Origin: Rhodococcus qingshengii JCM 15477
Lineage (GTDB): Bacteria > Actinomycetota > Actinomycetes > Mycobacteriales > Mycobacteriaceae
Reading direction: 5' to 3'
DNA: 64,000 nt
NCBI RefSeq assembly: GCF_023221595.1
Contig: NZ_CP096563.1
Span: 5,637,001-5,701,000 of the forward strand
In this document: one piece after another, positions 1-12,164 of the stretch
Position numbering within the stretch: the first letter of the stretch is position 1
Layout: each line of letters opens with the position of its first letter
Program-made: the position numbers and the translations under genes
Notes under the pieces: generated by a model
The model's database searches: none
What the model was told of the DNA's origin: nothing
The model's input: the letters and a program-made list of their open reading frames with translations, nothing else

Positions 1-362
1 GGTGCAACATGGACGGAACGTCCTGTGCCGCATGCAACGGCGGCGGTGTCACCACCTGCGCCCCCGGCAGCAAGCCCGGCGCAGAGTTCTGGGTCGGATG
101 CTGCACCAACCCTGATACCGGCAAGACCTATCTGATCGCCTACTACGACTGCTGTGGTGCACCTTCGTGTTCCAACGCATTCTGCGGCGAACCGGACATG
201 CAGGCCGTGATGTACAACCCGGTCTCCGGAAGCTACGACCAGGAAATCATCTGGTGTGTCTCCGACGAGTCCCAGGCATACACCTGCACGATGGCGCCCA
301 TCATCGGTGAGGACTGCCAGACTCGACCGGCCGAGCGCCCCAAGGTCGGTGCCGGATCATGA
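1..362 (+). CDS. mauA: TTQ amine dehydrogenase small subunit (MauA-like), 5' partial
   Basis: This is the cysteine-rich catalytic small subunit of a methylamine-dehydrogenase-type quinoprotein, which carries tryptophan tryptophylquinone (TTQ) and oxidises primary amines outside the cytoplasm. The reading frame is open from base 3, so the signal peptide and N-terminus lie outside the window; the ATG at 9 is internal. About 119 residues remain. Both TTQ tryptophans are recognisable from family knowledge: one in EFWVGCC and one in IIWCVS. The run YLIAYYDCCG matches the disulfide-rich core, and 13 cysteines are visible. The stop overlaps the next start by ATGA, so the large subunit is translationally coupled. 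The family is best known from proteobacterial periplasms. Substrate cannot be read from sequence: methylamine or an aralkylamine are both possible. Confidence 0.9.
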   Translation, partial: CNMDGTSCAACNGGGVTTCAPGSKPGAEFWVGCCTNPDTGKTYLIAYYDCCGAPSCSNAFCGEPDMQAVMYNPVSGSYDQEIIWCVSDESQAYTCTMAPIIGEDCQTRPAERPKVGAGS

Positions 363-1678
363 GCAGTCCGCGAACCCGAAAACTGGCGCGACCCGCCGTT
401 GCCGTCATCCCACTCACCGTCGTACTCGCGCTGGCCGGCTGCAGTTCGTCTGACAACGACGAACCCTCCAGCGCAGGTGATGTCACCTATCCGACAGTTC
501 CGTTCACTGCTCCAGGTGAAGGAATCTCCCTCGGTCCCGACGACCAGGAAATCGGCGACACCATTCCCGAGCCGTTGCACGTCGGTTCGATCACCCCGAT
601 CGCAGCTGACCGCTTGCTGGGCGTCGAAGGTGGATTCGGCCAACTCGAGCTCAGCGTCAACGTCATCGATCCGAAAACCGGTGTGGCCGAGAGCCGGATC
701 ACCGTCGGCCCTGGTATCTGGGATCCGGTCATTCACGGATTCGTCGGGGATTCCGCCGAGGATCCTGCGGTGCTCGCTGCCGAGGTGTGGCGGCCCCGAG
801 GTTCCCGCGGCGCGGCAGATTTCACGGTCAGCACCTACTCCGGAAACCTGCTGGAACCAGCCGAGGTCATGCTTCCGGACGTCGCACGCGTACATTCCCG
901 TCCCGGCTCGAACGCCGTGACGTCCGACGGCAAGTTCTTCGTCACGTGGGACGACGGTTTGTACGGCATCAGAGTGGTCGACCTCGAGAAGAAGGAAGCG
1001 ACCGGTGCACTCCAGATAGTCGGCTGCGGTCCGTTCACGTGGATGGTCGATCACGAACTGTACAGCGTCTGCGAGGACACCCGGGAACTGCTGCACGTCA
1101 CGATCGGTGACGACGGAGTTCCGAAGGAAACCGCCCGAAGCAAGGTCCTACCCGAGGATTTTGTCTCCACCCGCAAGGTCACGTGGGCCTCGGAAGCACA
1201 AAAAGCCTTGCTGGTCAGTGAGAACGGCGATGTGTACGTCTTCGACTTCTCCAACGGACTGCCTCAGGAAGGTGTCAAGCCGATCGGAAACGCCGGGCAG
1301 GACTCCGGTCGATTCTCGGAGAACGTCATCAACGCCGACGCAACCCGGCTCGCAATCGCGTACACGGACACGGCTATTCATCCGGACTCTGCTCGGGGAG
1401 GCTCACTGGTCAAGATCGACTTGTCCGATGCAACGACCTTCGCCCCGGTGAAGAGCTTGACGCTTGCAGACCTCGGCTTGACAGACATCAAGAGCATGAC
1501 CTTTTCCGTCGACGGCGCCACGTTCTACGTGCTCGGTTCGGGACCTGAGGTCGAAGGCTCCGCTCCGCAGAAGGTCGTGGGTTACAACGCGAGCACCGGC
1601 GAGCAGGTCAGTTCCGTCGATGTCTCGGGCAACGTCGGGGATGTCAGCGGGTTGATCACACCAGAAGTACTCCGATGA
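359..1678 (+). CDS. mauB: Amine dehydrogenase large subunit-like lipoprotein (MauB-like beta-propeller)
   Basis: Predicted partner of the TTQ small subunit. In this family the heavy chain is a seven-bladed beta-propeller that cradles the small subunit. The 439-residue protein starts with a basic n-region, a hydrophobic stretch and a lipobox LAGC (Cys about residue 28), so it should be a membrane-anchored lipoprotein rather than a soluble periplasmic protein. The mature part is a repetitive beta-rich sequence without obvious other domains, consistent with a propeller. It overlaps the genes on both sides by ATGA (359-362 and 1675-1678), implying fixed stoichiometry with MauA and the MCO. The order small-then-large is the reverse of the classical mau order. 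The assignment to MauB rests on position and fold impression; a generic YncE/WD-like propeller is the alternative. Confidence 0.75.
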   Translation: MSSPRTRKLARPAVAVIPLTVVLALAGCSSSDNDEPSSAGDVTYPTVPFTAPGEGISLGPDDQEIGDTIPEPLHVGSITPIAADRLLGVEGGFGQLELSVNVIDPKTGVAESRITVGPGIWDPVIHGFVGDSAEDPAVLAAEVWRPRGSRGAADFTVSTYSGNLLEPAEVMLPDVARVHSRPGSNAVTSDGKFFVTWDDGLYGIRVVDLEKKEATGALQIVGCGPFTWMVDHELYSVCEDTRELLHVTIGDDGVPKETARSKVLPEDFVSTRKVTWASEAQKALLVSENGDVYVFDFSNGLPQEGVKPIGNAGQDSGRFSENVINADATRLAIAYTDTAIHPDSARGGSLVKIDLSDATTFAPVKSLTLADLGLTDIKSMTFSVDGATFYVLGSGPEVEGSAPQKVVGYNASTGEQVSSVDVSGNVGDVSGLITPEVLR

Positions 1679-3264
1679 GTCGTCCCGGATCCGGTGTGGT
1701 GATGGGCCGGCGCCGCTTCCTGAGTTTGGGAGCACTCGGCGCCGGAGCACTCGGGCTCGGCGCAATGGGGACGATTGCCGGATGCAGTTCCACTGCAGCA
1801 TCTCCGACGCCGACGACCGATCTCGACTACATCCTGCCCACCGACCCGGAAGTTGCCGCCGCAGAATCGGCGCGAGCCTGGAACGGGACCACCGCTGCGT
1901 TTGCCCTTGCCGCCGGATTCTCGACGGTAGATCTTGGCGGACGCCTCGTGGACACGTGGACGTACGGAGGCGCTGCGGTGGCTCCGGAACTTCGCCTGAA
2001 GTCCGGTGACCGGGTGAACGTCAGCGTCCAGAACGGCCTCGACGCCGAAACAACACTGCATTGGCACGGAATTCGAATCCGCAACGACATGGATGGCGCG
2101 GCACCCACCACGCAGGCTCCCATCGGCGCCGGTTCGAGTTTCGAGTACAACTTCATCGCACCGGATCCGGGAACGTACTGGTACCACTCGCACAGCGGAT
2201 TACAAGCCGATCGGGGGCTGTTCGGCGCCTTGATCGTCGAGAACCCGAACGACATCACCGGGGCCGACGTCGATGCCGTTCTGGTGCTCGACGACTGGCT
2301 CGACGGATTGGGTACCACCCCGGATTCCGTCCTGATGGCCCTGAACCCGGCAATTTCGGGCGGGCACGGCGGACACGGCAGTGGGGCAACAACTCCGGCG
2401 GAACACTCGGAAGCCGACATGTCCGTCGCGCAACAGTTGGTGAGCGGCGGACACGGTTCTTCCGAACCACTCGGCGGGATGACTCAACACATCGCGTATC
2501 CACTGCACTTGATCAACGGGCGGCCGCCCAACGATCCTGCTGTCGTCACTGCAGCGCCCGGTTCGACCCTGCGACTGCGAATCATCAACGCAGCGGCCGA
2601 AACTCCGTATCGGTTCGCTGTGGCCGGTCACGAGATGACAATTGTCGCTACCGATGGCTACGACGTGGAACCAACTCCTGCCGACACCATCATCGTCGGA
2701 ATGGCGCAGCGCTACGACGTGCTGGTGACGGTGAAGTCGGGAACATGGCCGGTGGTGGCGAAGGTCGAGGGCCGAGATGGTTATGCGTCGACCGTCCTAC
2801 GCAGCACCGACGCGTTGGCCCTGGCGAACCCGGATGTCGGCGGAAACCTCTCGGAACTGGCCGGCCGACTGGTCACCGAAAGCGAACTCCGGCCCACGGA
2901 ATACGCACGGCTCGAGACGAAGTCGCCTGATCGCGACTACCACATCGAATTGATCCAGGCCGGCGATCGGTACGTCTGGGGAATGGCGGGAGCCGATGCG
3001 GGCAAGCTCGTCATGAAACAGGGCGAACGGGTCCGGATCACGATGAAGAACACGTCCACGATGTGGCACCCGATGCACACCCACGGCCACACGTTTGCGG
3101 TACCGGATTACGGCGGACTTCGCCGCGACACCGTCAACGTCCTACCCGGCACCGAGCTTGCCATCGAGTTCGACGCCGACAATCCCGGCGAGTGGATGTT
3201 CCACTGCCACAACGCCTACCACTTCGAGGCCGGCATGACGGCAAATCTGCGTTACGTCCGCTGA
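1675..3264 (+). CDS. Tat-exported multicopper oxidase lipoprotein, TTQ operon copy
   Basis: Three-domain laccase-type multicopper oxidase of 529 residues that couples one-electron oxidations to reduction of O2 to water. The N-terminus has a twin-arginine motif (RRRFLS, about residue 12) and a lipobox IAGC (about residue 36), so a folded lipoprotein is expected on the outer face of the membrane. All copper-site motifs are visible: HWHG (about 129), WYHSHSG (about 169), HPMHTHGH (about 465) and HCHNAYHFEAGM (about 510), whose Met is the type-1 axial position. A His/Gly-rich insertion (GGHGGHGSG) sits mid-protein. It is translationally coupled to the large-subunit gene. Inference: it may be the terminal electron acceptor for the amine dehydrogenase via the downstream cupredoxins. 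A close paralogue lies at 9583-11145. Confidence 0.9.
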   Translation: MSRPGSGVVMGRRRFLSLGALGAGALGLGAMGTIAGCSSTAASPTPTTDLDYILPTDPEVAAAESARAWNGTTAAFALAAGFSTVDLGGRLVDTWTYGGAAVAPELRLKSGDRVNVSVQNGLDAETTLHWHGIRIRNDMDGAAPTTQAPIGAGSSFEYNFIAPDPGTYWYHSHSGLQADRGLFGALIVENPNDITGADVDAVLVLDDWLDGLGTTPDSVLMALNPAISGGHGGHGSGATTPAEHSEADMSVAQQLVSGGHGSSEPLGGMTQHIAYPLHLINGRPPNDPAVVTAAPGSTLRLRIINAAAETPYRFAVAGHEMTIVATDGYDVEPTPADTIIVGMAQRYDVLVTVKSGTWPVVAKVEGRDGYASTVLRSTDALALANPDVGGNLSELAGRLVTESELRPTEYARLETKSPDRDYHIELIQAGDRYVWGMAGADAGKLVMKQGERVRITMKNTSTMWHPMHTHGHTFAVPDYGGLRRDTVNVLPGTELAIEFDADNPGEWMFHCHNAYHFEAGMTANLRYVR

Positions 3265-3291
3265 CAAGTCGAAGAATGGAGAGAACACCTC

Positions 3292-3639
3292 ATGAAGAAA
3301 CTCGTTCCCGCTTTCCTGGTCGCGTGCGCTGCCCTGAGCCTCACCGCCTGCAGTAGTGATGCCGGTGCGTCGTCGGACGAACCTGCAGTCGTGATCGAGG
3401 TGAAGAACATGGCGTACACACCGGCATCGGTCACCATCGAGAAGGGACAGACCGTCGAATGGAAGTTCGACGACAGCGGACTCCCCCACGACGTGGTCGG
3501 CAACGGTGATCTCGACGGGAAACTGAAGAGCGAGTTGCTCACCGAGGGAACCTTCTCGTACACGTTCGACGACGCCGGCACCTTCACCTACCACTGCACG
3601 CCCCATCCGATGATGGTGGGCACCGTGATCGTTCAATAG
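3292..3639 (+). CDS. Amicyanin-like cupredoxin lipoprotein 1
   Basis: Small blue-copper electron carrier of 115 residues. It has a lipoprotein signal ending in LTAC and a single plastocyanin/amicyanin-type domain. Type-1 copper ligands are visible: His in LPHDV, then Cys, His and Met in YHCTPHPMM, with the C-x2-H-x2-M spacing I associate with amicyanin, the natural partner of methylamine dehydrogenase. An AGAG-containing purine tract (GGAGAG) precedes the ATG. It lies 27 bp behind the MCO and its stop overlaps the next GTG start. Inference: it shuttles electrons from the TTQ enzyme to the MCO. Very similar in layout to the cupredoxin at 9225-9572. Confidence 0.9.
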   Translation: MKKLVPAFLVACAALSLTACSSDAGASSDEPAVVIEVKNMAYTPASVTIEKGQTVEWKFDDSGLPHDVVGNGDLDGKLKSELLTEGTFSYTFDDAGTFTYHCTPHPMMVGTVIVQ

Positions 3640-3962
3640 TGAGGAGGTGGACCGCCGGCTTCGGCCTCGCTGTCGCGGCGACGTGTGTCCCAGCTTGCGG
3701 CACAGAAGATCCCGTCCCCGATGTGGTGGTCGAGATCAGCAATGTTCAGTTCAGTCCGATGGACGTCACCGTGGAGCACGGCGGCACCGTCGAGTGGCGC
3801 TTCGACGACGGCGGACTCCTGCATCACGTGGAATCACCCGGCCTGTTCGACAGCGGTATCACCGGAGACGGAACGTTCCGGCACACGTTCGAGAGCGTCG
3901 GAGTCTACGAATATTCGTGCTCCGTGCACCCGTACATGATCGGAGTCATCACAGTGCTGTGA
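3639..3962 (+). CDS. Amicyanin-like cupredoxin lipoprotein 2
   Basis: Second cupredoxin of the TTQ operon, 107 residues. The start is a GTG sharing one base with the preceding TAG stop (TAGTG); an internal purine tract near the start makes the next in-frame codons less likely. The N-terminus is hydrophobic and ends at a possible lipobox (VPAC, an atypical proline at -2). Copper ligands: His in LLHHVE and Cys/His/Met in YSCSVHPYM, again with C-x2-H-x2-M spacing. It is clearly diverged from cupredoxin 1, so the pair may have different redox potentials or partners, for example one docking to the dehydrogenase and one to the MCO. That division of labour is speculation. Confidence 0.87.
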   Translation: MRRWTAGFGLAVAATCVPACGTEDPVPDVVVEISNVQFSPMDVTVEHGGTVEWRFDDGGLLHHVESPGLFDSGITGDGTFRHTFESVGVYEYSCSVHPYMIGVITVL

Positions 3963-4036
3963 ACTCTGGCTCATCACTTTTCGCTGCGACTTCGGCTCGA
4001 CACTTTTCCTGAACCACAAACACTTCGGAGGATCTG

Positions 4037-4873
4037 ATGACTACTGTTCTCTCACACGGCCCACTGCAGACCGACGTCCCTGACATCCGGCCGACCCTTC
4101 AAGGATCGGTCGGCACCGCGACCCGTGTCAGCCTCGTCGCGGCGGGCGCCGCTGCGGGTGCCGGCCTCGCACTCGTGGCCACGCCATCTGCGACAACAGC
4201 TTTGACCACAGCTGTTATCGGCGCCGGGCTGGTTACGTCGCTGGCCGCGAACTGGTCGACCTGCGGAATGTCCGTCGCCGGAGTTGTTGCGGCGCCGAAG
4301 CAAGTCGATCGGAAGGGATCCTCGACTCCCGTCCGCCGACTCGGCTGGCACGCTCTGGGTTCGGTCACGACGGGAGCCGTCACCGGGGCATTGATCGGCG
4401 CTCTCGGTGCGGCGATGTCCGGGTACGTGCCGGTCGGCTGGGCGCTGGGCGTCTGGGCCGTCGTCGCGGTTGCATACGGGCTGCACGAGTTGGGTGCGGT
4501 GAGCATGCCGACTCCGATGCGGCGCCAACAGCTTCCGCGCCATCTGCGCCGCACGATGGCGCCGTGGAAGGTCTCGCTGATCTTCGGCGCGATCATCGGT
4601 CCGGGATTTCTGATCTTCATCCGCTCGAGTGCGTACTACCTCTTGGCACTCGGCGTCATGGCTTCGGGTTCACCGGCTCTCGGGGCGGCGCTGTTCACAG
4701 TCGTATCCCTTGGCCGCTGCATGCCCAGCCTCGCGGCAATCGTGCACACCAAGCGCGGTGGCTCGATGCCGGGATTCCTCTCGATCATGTGCGTCGTGGA
4801 CCGTCGCGTGCAGAGCGTCACCGGCGCGGCATTGATCGCACTGGGAGCATTCGCCGCCGCAGCACTGATCTGA
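4037..4873 (+). CDS. Polytopic membrane protein, MauF-like
   Basis: 278-residue integral membrane protein with about seven hydrophobic segments and a clear GGAGG ribosome site 7 bases before the ATG. Length, a central HELG motif followed by a polar PTPMRRQQLP loop, and Cys residues in or near membrane segments (STCGMS, GRCMPS, IMCVVD) resemble MauF, a CcdA/DsbD-like membrane protein needed for methylamine dehydrogenase biogenesis in Gram-negatives. This is a pattern resemblance from memory, not an alignment. If correct it would feed reducing equivalents to the disulfide/TTQ maturation system, with MauD/MauE/MauG expected upstream of the window. The alternative is an unrelated membrane protein. 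It is the last gene of the operon before a strong hairpin. Confidence 0.55.
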   Translation: MTTVLSHGPLQTDVPDIRPTLQGSVGTATRVSLVAAGAAAGAGLALVATPSATTALTTAVIGAGLVTSLAANWSTCGMSVAGVVAAPKQVDRKGSSTPVRRLGWHALGSVTTGAVTGALIGALGAAMSGYVPVGWALGVWAVVAVAYGLHELGAVSMPTPMRRQQLPRHLRRTMAPWKVSLIFGAIIGPGFLIFIRSSAYYLLALGVMASGSPALGAALFTVVSLGRCMPSLAAIVHTKRGGSMPGFLSIMCVVDRRVQSVTGAALIALGAFAAAALI

Positions 4874-5683: not shown

Positions 5684-7417
5684 TCATGGCTCGAGCGCTC
5701 GGTCGATCCTCCATCCCTCCGCGCCACTGCGCTCGGCCCACAGATCCGAGTACTTTCCACCTCGCGCGATCAGGTCTTCGTGGGAACCGACCTCCTCCAC
5801 CCCACCGTCTTCGAGGTAGACGATGCGATCTGCTCCCTCAATAGTCGACAGGCGATGAGCGATGATCACCACCGTTCGACCACGGGCCAATCGGTGAATT
5901 GCCTCGGTGATGGCGACTTCGTTCTCTCCGTCGAGGGCTGAAGTCGCTTCATCGAGTAGAACTATCGGAGTGTCCTTGAGGAATGCCCGCGCAATCGAGA
6001 CCCGCTGACGTTCACCGCCGGACAGCAGTGATCCGCCTTCACCTACCCTGGTCTCCTCACCGCTCGGCAAACGGTCGATCACTTCGGCTAGCCTGGAATC
6101 CACCACTGCTTGACGGACCTCCGACTCGGTGGCATCCGGTCTCGCCAACCGAACGTTCTCCAGGATGGTTCCGTCGAACAGGTAAACCTGCTGTGAGACA
6201 GTCGATATCCGAGACATCAATGCTCTCGTTCCGATGTCGCGAACATCGGCTCCCCCGATGGATACCGCACCTTCGTCGACGTCCCAAAATCTGGAGATCA
6301 GCCGAACCAGAGTTGTCTTTCCGGAACCGGAAGGACCGACCAGAGCAGTGACCGAGCAGTCCGGGAATTCGAGACTCACGTTCCGAATCACGCGATCCGG
6401 GCCGTAGCCGAAGGAGACCGAATCGAACCGAATATCATACGACGTAGGCTCTTTCGGCACCTCAGGTTCCGCCAGCACCGGTACATCGATCATCTCTCGG
6501 ACAGATCCGAGCGACACCCGGGCCAGTGAGATACCTTCACCGAATCCTGCGAGCATCTGCATCGGCTCCACGAACCTCACGGCCAACACGAGAACAACGA
6601 TCACGCTTGCTGTGTCGATGGACCCGGTGGTGACCAGCAGTGCCGCCAGTACCAGGACGGTGAGAAAGGCAACCTGAACGACGATCATGAACCGCAGCAG
6701 ATACTTGTCGACCGATCCGATTTCCTGCAGGTGTGCGTCCCGGTTGGACACAAGAGCTTCGTCCAACCGGGACCAGCCTTCGCCACTCTTACCGGCCGAA
6801 CGTAGAACTTGCTGCGCCTGTGCATATTCGACGACGCGTGATGCCAGCTCGGATTCGCTCTTGCCGATCACCTCGTATTCGGGAACAACCGCCCGCTGCA
6901 CGTTGCGGTAAGCCCGAATCCCCAGTGGAACGAAGACGACCATCGTGAGAGACAGTCGCCAGTCCACAAACAAGACAGCGATCGCCACTGTCGCTGGAGT
7001 CACCGTGACGGTGACGAGTTGCGCGAGGATCATTCCCGGGATGCTCATCAAGATTGCCGTGCCCTCGGTGACCAGGCGAGTGAACGCTCCACGATTTGCC
7101 TTGCTGAACCACCCGAGCGGAACCTGCACCAAGTGTTCACCGAGGCGATGCATGATTCCACCGGCAAAACCCTCGATTCCGATGCGGTACGCCCGATTCT
7201 CGGCGATCCACCGTACGGCGCCACAGGCTACCGCCACGAGAGCAGAAGTGACAACCCACGGAACTGCGGCGTCGTAATCGCCGCGAACCACCGCTTTCAG
7301 GATCGGAATCATCAGTGCAAAGACGATACCCTCGAGTATCCCGGCGAGCGTGAAACCTGCTATCTGACCTCGCATCCCATTGTCGCGCCCGAGGATTTCG
7401 TCCAGGTCTCGAATCAT
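5684..7417 (-). CDS. ABC half-transporter (permease-ATPase fusion), YbtQ/IrtB-like
   Basis: 577-residue type-IV ABC half-transporter: six membrane helices in the first about 310 residues, then an ATPase domain. Walker A (GPSGSGKTTL), signature (LSGGERQRVS), Walker B (VLLDEATSA) and the H-loop (IIAHRLS) are all present. Start chosen at ATG 7417, which forms an ATGA overlap with the preceding half-transporter, so the two likely form a heterodimer. Its exporter-like fold next to a siderophore-binding lipoprotein recalls YbtPQ and IrtAB, which import ferric siderophores despite that fold. There is no SIP reductase domain as in IrtA. A drug exporter is the alternative reading. Confidence 0.88.
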   Translation of the reverse strand: MIRDLDEILGRDNGMRGQIAGFTLAGILEGIVFALMIPILKAVVRGDYDAAVPWVVTSALVAVACGAVRWIAENRAYRIGIEGFAGGIMHRLGEHLVQVPLGWFSKANRGAFTRLVTEGTAILMSIPGMILAQLVTVTVTPATVAIAVLFVDWRLSLTMVVFVPLGIRAYRNVQRAVVPEYEVIGKSESELASRVVEYAQAQQVLRSAGKSGEGWSRLDEALVSNRDAHLQEIGSVDKYLLRFMIVVQVAFLTVLVLAALLVTTGSIDTASVIVVLVLAVRFVEPMQMLAGFGEGISLARVSLGSVREMIDVPVLAEPEVPKEPTSYDIRFDSVSFGYGPDRVIRNVSLEFPDCSVTALVGPSGSGKTTLVRLISRFWDVDEGAVSIGGADVRDIGTRALMSRISTVSQQVYLFDGTILENVRLARPDATESEVRQAVVDSRLAEVIDRLPSGEETRVGEGGSLLSGGERQRVSIARAFLKDTPIVLLDEATSALDGENEVAITEAIHRLARGRTVVIIAHRLSTIEGADRIVYLEDGGVEEVGSHEDLIARGGKYSDLWAERSGAEGWRIDRALEP

Positions 7418-9228
7418 TGCGGCGCCTTTCGCGGAGAGATGTCTTCGACGAGGGGGTTCTGGAGCGCCCACATCCGCGCGTAGGTTCCGCCGAGCGCCGA
7501 CAACTGTTCGTGCGTACCCTTTTCCACGATCCGTCCGGCGTCGAGAACGAGTATCTGATCTGCGTATCGGACGGTGTGCAGTCGATGAGCGATCACCATC
7601 ATGGTGCCGCCGTCTGCACTGATCTCGCCCAGTGCGCGTTGAACGGCCGATTCACTGTGGGGATCGGCCTGCGAAGTCGCCTCGTCCAGGATGACGATCG
7701 GCGGGTTCTGAAGGATGGCGCGGGCGATCGTCAGGCGTTGCTTCTCCCCACCCGACAGCTCACCGCCCGAACCACCACCGATCTCGGTGTCGTACCCGTC
7801 TGGCAGTCGCACGATCACGTCATGAATTTGCGCCCGCTTCGCCGCTGTCTCCACTTCCAGATCCGTTGCATCTGGTCTGCCGAGCCGAATGTTCTCGCGC
7901 ACGGTGTCCCGCAAGAGCACGACATCCTGGAAGACGATCGCCATCGATTTCAAGACTTCGCGACTGGACTGATCTCGTAAATCGCTTCCGCCCAGTCGAA
8001 TAGACCCGTCCGTGACGTCCCAGAACCGCGGAAGTAGACGCGCCAAAGTGGTCTTTCCGGAGCCGGAGGGGCCAACGATCGCGGTCACGGTGCCCGGTTG
8101 CATCTCGAAGGAGATGTTCTCGAGGACGCGCTGCCCAGTGGTGTATTCGAAGCCGACGCTGTCGAATTCGACCAAAGTGCTGCGAGCAGGCACTGCATCC
8201 TGAGGTTCGGCCAGCTCTGGTTCGCCGAGGATGCTCTCGACGTGAGTCGCTCCCAGTTGGCCTTCGCGGTAGAGGTTGGCCATCGTTCCCATGTGCAGAA
8301 CCGACGACGGAACACCGATTCCGACGACCAGAAAGGCAACAAGAGCTACCGGGGTAATCCAACCCCCGGACAACATTGCAGTTCCCGTCGCCGTGATGAC
8401 CACGATGAGTACCGCCGGTGAGAGGAGGATCGACATCGCGACCACCGGCCTTCCCATCCCCGACATCCATCGCACGCACACCGCAACCATCGAATCGACA
8501 GCGCTCGAGTAGCGCGCGAATGCGCGACTCCCACTCCCGTACGTCTTGACAACCTCGATACCGTCGCCCAGTTCTACTGTCGCAGAGGTCAATGTCGACA
8601 TTGCAAGATTCCAGGAGTCGACGTTCGTTCGATAGGCTCTGCGCATCGACGGCGCGGCGAGAGCGAGACACACTCCGATGTAGCCGACCAGGACCAGGCT
8701 GAACTTCCAGTCCTTCGCCACCAGATAGATCAGGGCCACTATCGGCGACAGGATCGCGGGCACCACGTCGGCGGGAAGGTGAGCGACGAGAAGATGCATC
8801 CGCTTCACGTCGTCCGTCATCGCCTGCTTCACTTCACCGGTGCCACCATTTGCAAACCACCCCAGAGGAACTCGGGACAGATGCCGAGCGATACGCGAGC
8901 GGATCGAGTATTTGAAATGCGCGTCGGCGGTGTGACAGACGGTCAGTGCTGCGTTGTAGACGACAAAACCGAGAATTGTGCCCGCTGCACCGATTGCGGC
9001 CCACATCCAGACCAGGTTCAACGACGAGCCGGTCAGGAGCACCCGCGCGATCTCGACCACCGCAACGTAGGGCAGGAATCGCAGTGGCACCGACAGTGCC
9101 GACAGACCCGCCCCTAGGAGGAGTTGATTTCTCACCGGCGCGATCATCCTGCCCAAAGCGTCTCGGTCGACGAGTCCAGGCGAGTCTTCCGGGGCTGCGG
9201 ACTCGTTCACTTTCATTGCCGCACTCAC
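7414..9228 (-). CDS. ABC half-transporter (permease-ATPase fusion), YbtP/IrtA-like
   Basis: 604-residue partner of the half-transporter at 5684-7417. It has an N-terminal six-helix membrane domain and an ATPase with Walker A (GPSGSGKTTL), signature (LSGGEKQRLT), Walker B (VILDEATSQ) and H-loop (VIAHRLH). The GTG at 9228 gives a GTGA overlap with the cupredoxin stop; an ATG at 9216 is the alternative start. Coupling by overlap on both sides places it firmly in a single operon with the metallophore-binding protein, MCO and cupredoxin. Inferred role: import of a ferric or other metallophore complex. Confidence 0.88.
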   Translation of the reverse strand: MSAAMKVNESAAPEDSPGLVDRDALGRMIAPVRNQLLLGAGLSALSVPLRFLPYVAVVEIARVLLTGSSLNLVWMWAAIGAAGTILGFVVYNAALTVCHTADAHFKYSIRSRIARHLSRVPLGWFANGGTGEVKQAMTDDVKRMHLLVAHLPADVVPAILSPIVALIYLVAKDWKFSLVLVGYIGVCLALAAPSMRRAYRTNVDSWNLAMSTLTSATVELGDGIEVVKTYGSGSRAFARYSSAVDSMVAVCVRWMSGMGRPVVAMSILLSPAVLIVVITATGTAMLSGGWITPVALVAFLVVGIGVPSSVLHMGTMANLYREGQLGATHVESILGEPELAEPQDAVPARSTLVEFDSVGFEYTTGQRVLENISFEMQPGTVTAIVGPSGSGKTTLARLLPRFWDVTDGSIRLGGSDLRDQSSREVLKSMAIVFQDVVLLRDTVRENIRLGRPDATDLEVETAAKRAQIHDVIVRLPDGYDTEIGGGSGGELSGGEKQRLTIARAILQNPPIVILDEATSQADPHSESAVQRALGEISADGGTMMVIAHRLHTVRYADQILVLDAGRIVEKGTHEQLSALGGTYARMWALQNPLVEDISPRKAPQ

Positions 9229-9572
9229 TCTTCGACGATGATCGTGCCGGTCATGTTCGGATGTGGTGTGCACGTGTAGGTGAACGTTCCGGCTTTGTCG
9301 AAGGTCTGACTGTAGGTTCCGCTTCCTTGGAGATCGCTCTTGATCCCCAACTCGGCGAACACGACATCGTGCGGCATTCCCTGGTCCTCGAAAATCCACG
9401 TGACGGTCTGTCCTGTGTGCACGGTGACGGAGTTCGGTGTGTACGCAAGGTTTTTCACCGAGATCTCGACCGGCGCTTGCTCGGTAGATCCCGTCGAATC
9501 GTTGCCGCACGACGTCAGTGTGAACACCGCTGCAACAGCGATCAATGTGGTCAATCCGGTGCGAACTGACAT
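9225..9572 (-). CDS. Amicyanin-like cupredoxin lipoprotein 3
   Basis: 115-residue blue-copper lipoprotein (lipobox LTSC) with copper ligands His in MPHDV and Cys/His/Met in YTCTPHPNM, the same C-x2-H-x2-M spacing as the two cupredoxins of the TTQ operon. It lies 10 bases behind the second MCO and overlaps the ABC gene by GTGA. It most resembles cupredoxin 1 (3292-3639), indicating that the MCO-cupredoxin pair was duplicated as a unit. Expected function: electron or copper transfer to the neighbouring MCO at the outer membrane face. Confidence 0.9.
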   Translation of the reverse strand: MSVRTGLTTLIAVAAVFTLTSCGNDSTGSTEQAPVEISVKNLAYTPNSVTVHTGQTVTWIFEDQGMPHDVVFAELGIKSDLQGSGTYSQTFDKAGTFTYTCTPHPNMTGTIIVEE

Positions 9573-9582
9573 TCTGCTCTCC

Positions 9583-11145
9583 TCATCGAACGTAGTGGAG
9601 GTCGGCAGTCATCCCGGCCTCGAAGTGGTACGCGTTGTGACAGTGAAACATCCACCGTCCTGGATTGTCGGCGTCGAAGTCGATCGCCATTTGTGTACGC
9701 GGAAGTACGATCACAGTGTCTCGGCGAAGCCCGCCGTAGGAGGGAACCGAGAAGGTGTGCCCATGGGTGTGCATCGGGTGCCACATGTCGGTGTCGTTGT
9801 TCATGACGATTCGTATTCGCTCGCCCTGCTTCATTCTCAACCGACCTGCATCGGCGCCCGCCATTCCCCAGAGGTATCGATCGCCGGCCTGAATGAGATC
9901 CACCGAATACGCACGATCCGGTGCCCTCTGCTCCAGCGCTCCTGACGGGCGAAGCTCCGATTCCAGAACGAGCCGACCGCCGGAACCTGACAGCACTGCA
10001 GGCGAAGTCAGGTCGACGACCGCCACCGAATCCGGCGTCCGAAGCAGGCACGCGACGCCACCTGACTTCCCTTCCACCTTCGCGGCGATGGGCCACGAGC
10101 CGGACTGCACCGTCACCAATACGTCGTATCGCTGCGCGGGTGCGATCAGAATCTCGTCTCCGGCTGTGTAGGCAACGTCCTGCCCGTCAGCACTGACAAC
10201 GGTCATCTCGTGCCCGGCGACCGAGAAACGGTACGGAGTCTCCGCCCCGGCATTGATCACCCGCAATCGAAGCCGAGTTCCGGCCGTCGCGCTGACGACG
10301 AAGGGATCTTCCACAGGCCGTCCGTTGATCAGGTGCAGTGGATACGTGATGTGCGTTGCCATTCCACCGAGCGCCTCGGAATTACCGTGACCGCTGGCGA
10401 GAAGTTCTGCGGCAGAATCAATCTCTGCATCATCGACTTCCGGTGGAGCTCCGCCGTGCCCGTGGTGTCCTCCCTGCACGTCCGGTGACAATGCGCGAAG
10501 CACTGCATCCGGGGTTGTTCCCAGCCCGTCGAGCCAGTCGTCGATCACGATGACGACGTCCTCGTCGGCTCCGGTCCGGTCGTTCGGGTCCTCGACCACG
10601 AGTGCACCGAATAGCCCTCGATCGGCCTGCAAGCCTGAATGGGAGTGGTACCAATATGTTCCGTGATCCGGGGCCACGAAGTCGTAGGTGAACTCGGCAC
10701 CTGGTTGGATTCGTTCCTGGGTGACCGGCGGGACGCCGTCCATGTCGTTGCGGATCGCAATGCCGTGCCAGTGCACCGAGGTCTCCGTCGGAAGGTCGTT
10801 CTCCAAAAGAACGTTGAGCCGGTCTCCCTTGGAGATTCGAAGCTCCGGGCCAACTGCTTCCGCACCGTACGACCATGTGTCGACCTCTCTGGCGCCCAGA
10901 CTCACCCGAGCCGGTGCAGCTGTCAGATTCCGTTCGACTGTGCGCCCGCTATGAAATCTCGCCTGTTCGGCAGCACGAACTTCGTCGTCGAACGGTGAAA
11001 TCTCAGAACTGGATTCGTTCGCCGAACCACGGCTGCACGCACTCAATGCCACAGAACCCAAAGCCGCAGAACCCACAGCCGCAGAGCCGAGCGTCACCGC
11101 TCCCCATCGCAGAGCCAGGCGCCGACTCAACGCACTCGAACTCAT
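9583..11145 (-). CDS. Multicopper oxidase lipoprotein, metallophore operon copy
   Basis: 520-residue three-domain MCO, strongly similar along its length to the copy at 1675-3264 (for example shared DRGLFGAL and DDWLDGLGTTPD blocks). Start at ATG 11145, which makes an ATGA overlap with the binding-protein gene. The N-terminus has twin arginines (SRRLALRW), a hydrophobic stretch and a lipobox LSAC. Copper motifs HWHG, WYHSHSG, HPMHTHGH and HCHNAYHFEAGM are intact, and there is a His-rich GGHHGHGG insert. Embedded in a metal-uptake operon, it may act as a ferroxidase, cuprous oxidase or metallophore-modifying oxidase; the substrate cannot be told from sequence. Confidence 0.9.
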   Translation of the reverse strand: MSSSALSRRLALRWGAVTLGSAAVGSAALGSVALSACSRGSANESSSEISPFDDEVRAAEQARFHSGRTVERNLTAAPARVSLGAREVDTWSYGAEAVGPELRISKGDRLNVLLENDLPTETSVHWHGIAIRNDMDGVPPVTQERIQPGAEFTYDFVAPDHGTYWYHSHSGLQADRGLFGALVVEDPNDRTGADEDVVIVIDDWLDGLGTTPDAVLRALSPDVQGGHHGHGGAPPEVDDAEIDSAAELLASGHGNSEALGGMATHITYPLHLINGRPVEDPFVVSATAGTRLRLRVINAGAETPYRFSVAGHEMTVVSADGQDVAYTAGDEILIAPAQRYDVLVTVQSGSWPIAAKVEGKSGGVACLLRTPDSVAVVDLTSPAVLSGSGGRLVLESELRPSGALEQRAPDRAYSVDLIQAGDRYLWGMAGADAGRLRMKQGERIRIVMNNDTDMWHPMHTHGHTFSVPSYGGLRRDTVIVLPRTQMAIDFDADNPGRWMFHCHNAYHFEAGMTADLHYVR

Positions 11146-12164
11146 GCCGTCAGCGCCGTGAATTCCTGATAGCGCGTCGCGGCAACAGCTTCGGTTCCGG
11201 TGCCGGTCAGATTGCCGGCAGCCATGGCATCCATGTCCTCGATCATCCAGAAGGTGGCGAAGGGATGAGTGGCAAGCCACATGTCTCCGTTGACCTTGGC
11301 CACTCGGTTCTCCTGCACCGCTGAAAGACTCGAGAATCCGGGAACACCGGCAACCTTGCCGAACTCGTACACGCCCTCGTCGAACACGGCTATGATCCGA
11401 GCATCCTGCGCCGGGATCGCCTCGTCGGACAGGGGCGCATACGGCAGTCCTCCAGCCGCATTCGCTCGCTGGGATTCCGGACGCCCGAAGCCGCTCTCCG
11501 CCAACAGCAACGACGGCGGCGCCTGCTCGGTGGTGGTGGCAAGGATTCCAGAACTGCTCATCAGCACCGACACGGTGTTCGCTTCACCACCGGACCGAGC
11601 AGAGACGTCAGCGATCTTGCCCTCCAAGGCGACGGTCAGCTTGTCGGCAACCGACTGACGATCAAAAGCGCGTCCGAAGAAGGCAAGATTCTCACGCCAC
11701 GGAGTGGTGACGGCCGGGACCGGCACTGTGGGGACGGTCGATGCGAGGGAGTCGTAGTAGCTCCGATCGCCCATCGACGTGAAGATGACCAGTCCGGGAT
11801 CCTGGGCGAGGACCTGCTCGATCGGGGGTGCACCGAGCGGCGGCACCGTGACCACCTCGGTACCCGCTGACGCCAAGATGTCCTGGCCGATCTCCGATCC
11901 CCACGACGTGAAGACCACATCAGGGGTGATGCCGACGGCAAGGAGACCGAGTGCGGCGTATTCGTCGAGGGAAACAATTCGCCCGAGGTCGCCTGGAACC
12001 GACGTCTCACCGAATTCATGGGACACAACACGCGTTCCCTCGGCAGGTTCCGTCGTCGGTCCCGCCTCACTCGAGCTACAGGCGGCCGCAGTCAGGGCAA
12101 CGACACTGACCAGCAGCGAAGCACCCAGCCTCGATAGGTAACCGGGTCGCGTTTTCAACTTCAT
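11142..12164 (-). CDS. Metallophore (siderophore) ABC substrate-binding lipoprotein, FepB/FecB-like
   Basis: 340-residue lipoprotein (lipobox TAAAC) of the periplasmic-binding-protein type that captures Fe(III)-siderophores or related metallophores. Family features are the N-terminal (R)IVSLDEYAALGLLAVGITP block, the LAQDPGLVIFTSMG segment and the AVQENRVAKVNGDMW segment near the C-terminus. It is the first gene of a six-gene operon: binding protein, MCO, cupredoxin, two ABC half-transporters, YdcF. The promoter region carries a 23-bp palindrome and an IdeR-like box, so iron and/or the divergent TetR regulator probably control it. Confidence 0.88.
   Translation of the reverse strand: MKLKTRPGYLSRLGASLLVSVVALTAAACSSSEAGPTTEPAEGTRVVSHEFGETSVPGDLGRIVSLDEYAALGLLAVGITPDVVFTSWGSEIGQDILASAGTEVVTVPPLGAPPIEQVLAQDPGLVIFTSMGDRSYYDSLASTVPTVPVPAVTTPWRENLAFFGRAFDRQSVADKLTVALEGKIADVSARSGGEANTVSVLMSSSGILATTTEQAPPSLLLAESGFGRPESQRANAAGGLPYAPLSDEAIPAQDARIIAVFDEGVYEFGKVAGVPGFSSLSAVQENRVAKVNGDMWLATHPFATFWMIEDMDAMAAGNLTGTGTEAVAATRYQEFTALTA

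Follow-up and report, generated by a model that had tools for sequence, protein, structure and literature searches.

A conserved actinobacterial operon for a predicted TTQ amine dehydrogenase that may pass its electrons to a multicopper oxidase

Tryptophan tryptophylquinone (TTQ) is the textbook example of a cofactor that a dedicated diheme enzyme builds from side chains of a protein. In methylamine dehydrogenase (MADH), the known TTQ maker is MauG, according to PMC6405878 and PMC7876137. Here, an operon for a predicted TTQ amine dehydrogenase is described that lies at the left edge of a 64,000-nucleotide stretch of Rhodococcus qingshengii JCM 15477 (contig NZ_CP096563.1, 5,637,001-5,701,000; hereafter the window), taken from a 7.5 Mb assembly of 6 contigs with a completeness of 100% and a contamination of 1.88%. 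The operon spans about 6.5 kb in the order mauE-mauD-mauA-mauB-MCO-cupredoxin1-cupredoxin2-mauF, where MCO denotes a multicopper oxidase gene, and its mauA is cut by the left edge of the window. The identities assigned to these genes are very probably correct. For the electrons, we propose a route from TTQ via the amicyanin-like cupredoxin 1 and the MCO to O2, a path and acceptor that, judged from the sequences, have about an even chance of being correct. As far as searched, the operon is a conserved variant within the TTQ amine dehydrogenase family that is apparently undescribed in the open-access literature, as none of the literature matches listed was taken to describe an actinobacterial TTQ operon with an MCO, or TTQ without MauG.

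The small-subunit gene mauA occupies positions 1..362 of the window (plus strand) with its 3' part. The full protein of 233 amino acids begins at a TTG start (contig position 5636661, 340 bases before the window) behind AGGAG and carries the twin-arginine leader of the twin-arginine translocation (Tat) pathway. That an actinobacterium carries a TTQ amine dehydrogenase operon, including a MauA with both TTQ tryptophans, had been proposed in the original prediction, and a hidden Markov model search supported the MauA assignment. The Pfam family Me-amine-dh_L (PF02975) was matched with an E-value of 2.8e-25 by the part inside the window and of 1.1e-31 by the full protein, which scored 110 bits against a cut-off of 25. 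Among the PDB sequences, the protein matches the small subunits of solved MADH and aromatic amine dehydrogenase (AADH) structures (best E 6.1e-33), and it is 30-37% identical to plasmid-borne proteobacterial MauA relatives. The equivalog cut-offs of the NCBIfam methylamine dehydrogenase models were missed (TIGR02659, 119.9 versus 196.85 bits; TIGR02658, 15.3 versus 454.45 bits). Therefore, methylamine should not be assumed as the substrate. In some databases, these proteins appear under the name 'methylamine dehydrogenase light chain', and the gene is thus already annotated.

Both TTQ tryptophans, W144 and W198, which correspond to W57 and W108 of Paracoccus MauA, are kept in all 34 actinobacterial sequences compared, from six families. 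Also identical in 34/34 are D118, D163, Y207 and T210, which align with Paracoccus D32, D76, Y119 and T122; we take these, as Asp32, Asp76, Tyr119 and Thr122, to be the residues with catalytic roles in the MADH small subunit. Of the 12 Paracoccus MauA cysteines, which make up the six disulfides of MADH, eleven are aligned in every one of the 34 sequences. The Cys86 column holds A, T, S or N in actinobacterial MauA, with T also found in 4/10 proteobacterial rows, and C170 lies close by. The extra cysteines 147 and 219 suggest a further disulfide. In the MauA tree, a branch with full support separates the actinobacterial sequences from 10 proteobacterial ones, and the latter fall into two groups, one MADH-like with 4 members (93/80) and one AADH-like with 6 (96/84). 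The tree and the residue table cover 34 of the 38 loci; L019, L020 and L022 (MauA 100% identical) were left out, as was L053, whose broken mauA lies on a contig of 3 kb, and row P0040, apparently frame-disturbed, was removed from alignment A2. This gene of Rhodococcus sp. JCM 9791 (L053 472-1716) is divided between two reading frames and is either a pseudogene or an assembly error.

The large subunit is encoded by the mauB-like gene at 359..1678 (plus strand). As a single sequence, its product stayed below the Pfam and NCBIfam cut-offs and matched the MADH heavy chain in the PDB weakly (E 7e-5). Profile-profile comparison with 10 proteobacterial MauB/AauB-type subunits gave a probability of 98.5 and an E-value of 2.3e-15 over 324 columns, and a control comparison with an unrelated profile gave E 0.63. 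The profiles thus support homology with the large subunit of the MADH/AADH family, for which a seven-bladed propeller is characteristic, but a profile search of the PDB sequences with the MauB alignment (A3) returned no matches at E 0.01. The lipobox Cys28 is invariant in 28/28 aligned sequences, and a lipobox motif is found at 38/38 loci; throughout, lipobox and Tat signals were assigned by motif, and gene starts at the compared loci were chosen by script. Directly upstream of the window, on the same strand as mauA, lie mauE (contig 5635372-5635962; PF07291, E 2.6e-25) and mauD (contig 5636007-5636615; TIGR02661, E 2.2e-49, with 167.5 bits under the cut-off of 188.6). At the other end of the operon, mauF (4037..4873, plus strand) encodes a membrane protein with a W-S-x-C-G motif, to which no Pfam or NCBIfam family was assigned; it matches Paracoccus MauF by BLASTP (1e-11) and by profile-profile comparison (probability 99.3, E 1.1e-20). 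The early descriptions of a lipoprotein large-subunit-like gene and a MauF-like membrane protein therefore hold. Alignment A3 comprises the window and 27/38 loci, A4 the window and 21/36, and A7 the window and 13/35.

Between mauB and mauF lie the three copper protein genes, all on the plus strand. The MCO gene (1675..3264) encodes a three-domain protein (PF07732/PF00394/PF07731) that is a Tat lipoprotein by motif, as had been read from the sequence before. Its type-1 and trinuclear copper ligands are present in 35/35 orthologs (the fragment at L053 was left out, and L054 has a masked stretch elsewhere), and RR12-13 and the lipobox Cys37 are present in 36/36. With 252.1 bits, the protein stayed below the cut-off of 478.95 for the CopA-type copper resistance subfamily TIGR01480. 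Cupredoxin 1 (3292..3639) and cupredoxin 2 (3639..3962) both carry the type-1 copper ligand motif H...C-X2-H-X2-M, in agreement with the amicyanin ligand spacing predicted for them. The top PDB matches of cupredoxin 1 are amicyanins (E 4.8e-15). In NCBIfam, it scored slightly higher as a halocyanin (53.9 bits) than as an amicyanin (52.3 bits), both under the cut-off, and the amicyanin equivalog TIGR02657 (cut-off 110.2 bits) was missed by both cupredoxins, with 52.3 and 26.4 bits. H66, C102, H105 and M108 of cupredoxin 1, the T-P between Cys and His, and a lipobox motif were found in 36/36 sequences. Cupredoxin 2 is a diverged paralog with 39% identity to cupredoxin 1; its ligands are kept in 32/32, V or I stands at the Pro position, and a lipobox was not found by script in the cupredoxin 2 of L056. 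L048 and Planctomonas deserti (L052) lack a second cupredoxin, and that of L051 is nearer to cupredoxin 1. With lipoboxes on MauB, the MCO and cupredoxin 1 alike, the suggested tethering by lipids agrees with the motifs. The ATGA overlaps of mauA/mauB and mauB/MCO and the TAGTG overlap of the two cupredoxin genes are exact in the window, as stated originally.

The species-genome contigs of GTDB were scanned with two actinobacterial MauA patterns, by which relatives outside the actinobacteria are not expected to show. From 49 stretches, 38 loci were confirmed, with hosts in Rhodococcus/Prescottella, Nocardia, Actinacidiphila, Kineococcus, Microbacterium, Planctomonas, Corynebacterium and Dietzia. 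Among assessable loci, MauE (37/37), MauD (37/37), MauB (38/38), cupredoxin 1 (36/36) and MauF (35/35) are always present, and the MCO follows mauB in 36/37, one of these being a fragment at a contig end. With the starts chosen by script, the mauB and MCO genes overlap in 35/36 loci and mauA and mauB in 34/38. Exceptions to the order are Kineococcus (L049), with mauF between mauA and mauB, and Planctomonas (L052), without an MCO. Rhodococcus sp. IEGM 1379 (L025) is listed under Cyanobacteriota in the tree taxonomy, which its sequence contradicts, and this is probably a record mix-up.

The operon is rare. Within the genus, 12/28 genomes are MauA-positive, with all candidates scored. In an even sample of the phylum with 396 genomes, only the window's own was above the PF02975 cut-off, and in the family of Planctomonas 1/299 was positive, namely Planctomonas itself; in both searches, genomes with more than about 12 first-look candidates were scored in part, so that these absences are weaker than that in the genus. 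The phylum sample gave one further PF02975 match, in G074, which was rejected because its 20 bits over 27 positions with an internal stop lay under the cut-off. No consistent catabolic gene accompanies the operon among ten proteins near four distant loci, four beside L050 and two gene sets searched against the loci.

The original prediction had directed attention to the sequence on the left for mauD, mauE and mauG. The first two are there, but a search with CCP_MauG (PF03150) found no match in the window's genome, which is rated 100% complete. The same search found none in 38/38 other MauA-positive genomes behind the named loci, for which the completeness is not stated. As controls, E. coli was matched, and 4/4 MauG/CCP proteins of Gram-negative mau clusters were recognised with 153-189 bits. 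Linked MauG was also not found within 9 kb in six annotated proteobacterial AADH-type clusters (L018, L067, L068, L071, L072, L075), of which L018, L067, L068, L072 and L075 were typed from gene content and only L067 is so named, nor within 9 kb in three further proteobacterial AADH-type clusters that carry no annotation (L066, L069, L073). Since the clusters were viewed within 9 kb, AADH-type hosts may carry MauG elsewhere in the genome. The six AADH-type clusters have neither mauF nor linked mauG, and four MADH-type clusters (L016, L017, L070, L074) have mauF and a MauG/CCP gene. Clusters with an MCO are thus not alone in lacking a linked MauG.

One way to account for the unmatched MauG family in these 39 genomes, and for the missed equivalog cut-offs, would be that no TTQ is made and that MauA, rich in disulfides but unmodified, has a different function. 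This is very improbable, as both tryptophans and the Asp76 equivalent are identical in 34/34 sequences from six families, and MauD, MauE and MauF occur in every assessable locus (37, 37 and 35). The conserved residues instead argue that TTQ is formed with high probability. Given that it is formed, it would quite probably be made without MauG, although this step is somewhat less secure. TTQ residues that are kept without a MauG-family match would imply either that TTQ can be reached by a second route or that some systems do without MauG.

A possible second route would lead through the MCO itself, which could replace MauG as a maturase and carry out the second hydroxylation, the Trp-Trp cross-link and the oxidation to the quinone with O2, while the working electrons go elsewhere. 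Besides the missing PF03150 matches, with a model that recognises 4/4 MauG/CCP proteins, it speaks for this maturase that the operon has no other conserved oxidase besides the dehydrogenase than the MCO, whose gene overlaps mauB in 35/36 loci. Nevertheless, we consider it unlikely. A potential of about 1 V is high for the type-1 copper of an MCO. This is the potential at which MauG acts on tryptophan according to PMC6405878, and it therefore counts against an MCO in this role. The six AADH-type clusters without linked MauG also argue against it, as does Planctomonas deserti. At its locus (L052 8716-13299), the genes are arranged as mauE-D-A-B-cupredoxin-mauF without a linked MCO, and its MauA keeps both tryptophans in a genome with no MauG match and no mau-type MCO; the one PF07732 match elsewhere in that genome is CotA-like by eye and was not reached by the search with the mau MCO. 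The MCO thus seems dispensable for TTQ in Planctomonas, which favours a role of the MCO as electron sink over one as maturase. This evidence is thin and settles nothing, since it comes from one genome, whose enzyme may be inactive.

In the genus, the MCO is tied to mauA. An ortholog with 75-100% identity over its length and at least 907 bits is present in 12/12 MauA-positive genomes, whereas close orthologs are found in none of the 16 MauA-negative genomes, two of which (G016, G019) are only about 75% complete. The best match among these 16 reached 397 bits (45%), short pieces had at most 51% identity, and 3/16 had no MCO match at 1e-30. In the MCO tree, which uses 31/36 mau MCOs (L019, L020, L022, L053 and L054 were left out), these and three paralogs form one set (100/100) that excludes 17 other actinobacterial MCOs and that of Chimaeribacter; a long-branch join was warned of for the Streptomyces plasmid row L079. 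The three paralogs, namely the second MCO of the window (9583..11142, minus strand; 62% identical to the mau MCO) and those of two near relatives, are placed at the poorly separated base of the set and are present in 3/28 genomes of the genus. In the window, L021 and L022, the paralog adjoins its own cupredoxin, which in the window lies outside the mau operon at 9225..9572 (minus strand; PF13473/PF00127). MCO and cupredoxin therefore seem to move as a pair, which suggests electron exchange between the two. The pair in the window (9225-11142, minus strand) also adjoins a Peripla_BP_2 gene and two ABC transporter genes, and this second region, 9225-12164 (minus strand) together with 5684-9216 (minus strand), is possibly a metal or siderophore uptake operon.

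According to the proposed route, MauA would be exported by Tat, with its disulfides made with the help of MauD and MauE, and would pair with the lipoprotein MauB to form an envelope-anchored TTQ amine dehydrogenase that oxidises an amine to an aldehyde and ammonia. The two electrons would leave the reduced quinone singly via cupredoxin 1, with cupredoxin 2 as a partner or branch, and would be passed to the type-1 copper of the dedicated MCO, which would reduce O2 to water. Copper proteins would thereby take over the part that cytochrome c and cytochrome oxidase play in Gram-negative systems, and TTQ would be completed by another route than MauG. This reading is favoured because of the linkage, the gene overlap, the lineage-specific MCO, the repeated MCO-cupredoxin pair and the MCO beside a TTQ cluster in Chimaeribacter.

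Several observations weigh against it. Since Planctomonas has no mau-type MCO, a different acceptor would be expected for its cupredoxin. In Microbacterium stercoris (L050 3825-20263), the operon lies between ctaD-ctaF and qcrB-qcrA-qcrC-ctaE, and an ordinary respiratory oxidase therefore remains an alternative acceptor; no other searched locus shows this adjacency. Among MCOs outside the mau set, neighbours were viewed for two: that of a Rhodococcus plasmid (L078) lies beside a two-component system, a DUF305 gene and a heavy-metal P-type ATPase gene, and that of a Streptomyces plasmid (L079) beside a two-component system only. The system had been proposed to be cytochrome-free, which is correct for the operon but not for the genome. 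PF13442 matches a two-domain cytochrome c there, which is taken as the QcrC of a bcc complex, plus one other protein, a small cytochrome c whose contig may be foreign.

Alternatively, cupredoxin 1 could deliver electrons to a bcc-aa3 supercomplex, with an MCO that only handles copper, by oxidising Cu(I) or by protecting or loading the cupredoxins. The QcrC-like cytochrome, the absence of a mau-type MCO in Planctomonas, the M. stercoris locus and the metal-related neighbours at L078 are all in line with such a division of tasks. However, the MCO is linked nearly as tightly as the structural genes, the eight operon genes include no copper transporter, chaperone or sensor, and the adjacency to cta/qcr is limited to 1 locus. 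Cu(I) oxidases carry a Met-rich segment. Such a segment was not seen in the mau MCO, whose residues 225-275 hold 2 Met and 5 His. Electron delivery to bcc-aa3 with a copper-handling MCO is thus considered rather unlikely, though less so than the maturase. The most far-reaching variant, in which the MCO both completes TTQ in pre-MauA without the MauG family and acts as the terminal oxidase of a copper-only, cytochrome-free system, appears improbable.

With respect to its surroundings, the operon is flanked on the opposite strand, diverging from mauE, by an amino-acid-type permease gene that overlaps an IclR regulator gene. Both flank 31/34 assessable loci, with weak matches in Microbacterium stercoris, and they name no substrate. 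The closest named locus is that of Rhodococcus erythropolis NBRC 15567 (L021), which has the top score for 7/10 genes compared and a tie for mauA. Elsewhere in the assembly, contig C6 (171401-173600; L077 970-2174) has a c-type cytochrome gene beside what by eye is the end of a pyrroloquinoline quinone (PQQ)-type dehydrogenase gene. This piece, with 68-70% GC over 2.2 kb, looks proteobacterial and may belong to a foreign contig.

The operon would provide a compact system, open to genetic work, whose amine oxidation may be coupled directly to O2 via copper proteins, which is of interest for biosensors and enzyme electrodes. Planctomonas deserti, with neither an MCO in its operon nor a MauG-family match, is a natural case for finding out which factors the formation of TTQ requires.

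Compared to known systems, the operon shares mauF, mauB, mauE, mauD, mauA, an amicyanin, the TTQ tryptophans and the catalytic residues with the mau cluster of Paracoccus denitrificans and Methylobacterium (L016, L017). MauA is 34-35% identical to the proteins of that cluster, and MauB is weakly detectable by single sequence. The genes mauG and mauJ and the NapG/NapH-type genes found there have no counterpart in the actinobacterial operon, which adds the MCO, the second cupredoxin and the lipobox motifs, and the order is E-D-A-B-MCO-cup-cup-F here but F-B-E-D-A-C-J-G there. The AADH-type clusters of Cupriavidus, Pseudomonas, Novosphingobium, Haematobacter and Paracoccus have the B-E-D-A core and the absence of a linked mauG in common with the operon. 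They contain small cytochromes c and no mauF, whereas the actinobacterial operon contains mauF, cupredoxins and the MCO. Other actinobacterial plasmid MCOs, such as the copper-resistance-like protein of L078, belong to the same fold family and have the same copper ligands with about 44% identity, but they fall outside the mau set in the tree and have different neighbours. The nearest parallel in gene arrangement is a plasmid of Chimaeribacter arupi (Yersiniaceae; L071 6622-11938), seen once, where an AADH-type TTQ core is followed by an MCO as in the actinobacterial operon, though this MCO is of a different subfamily (26% identity) and is accompanied by cytochrome c genes and no mauF.

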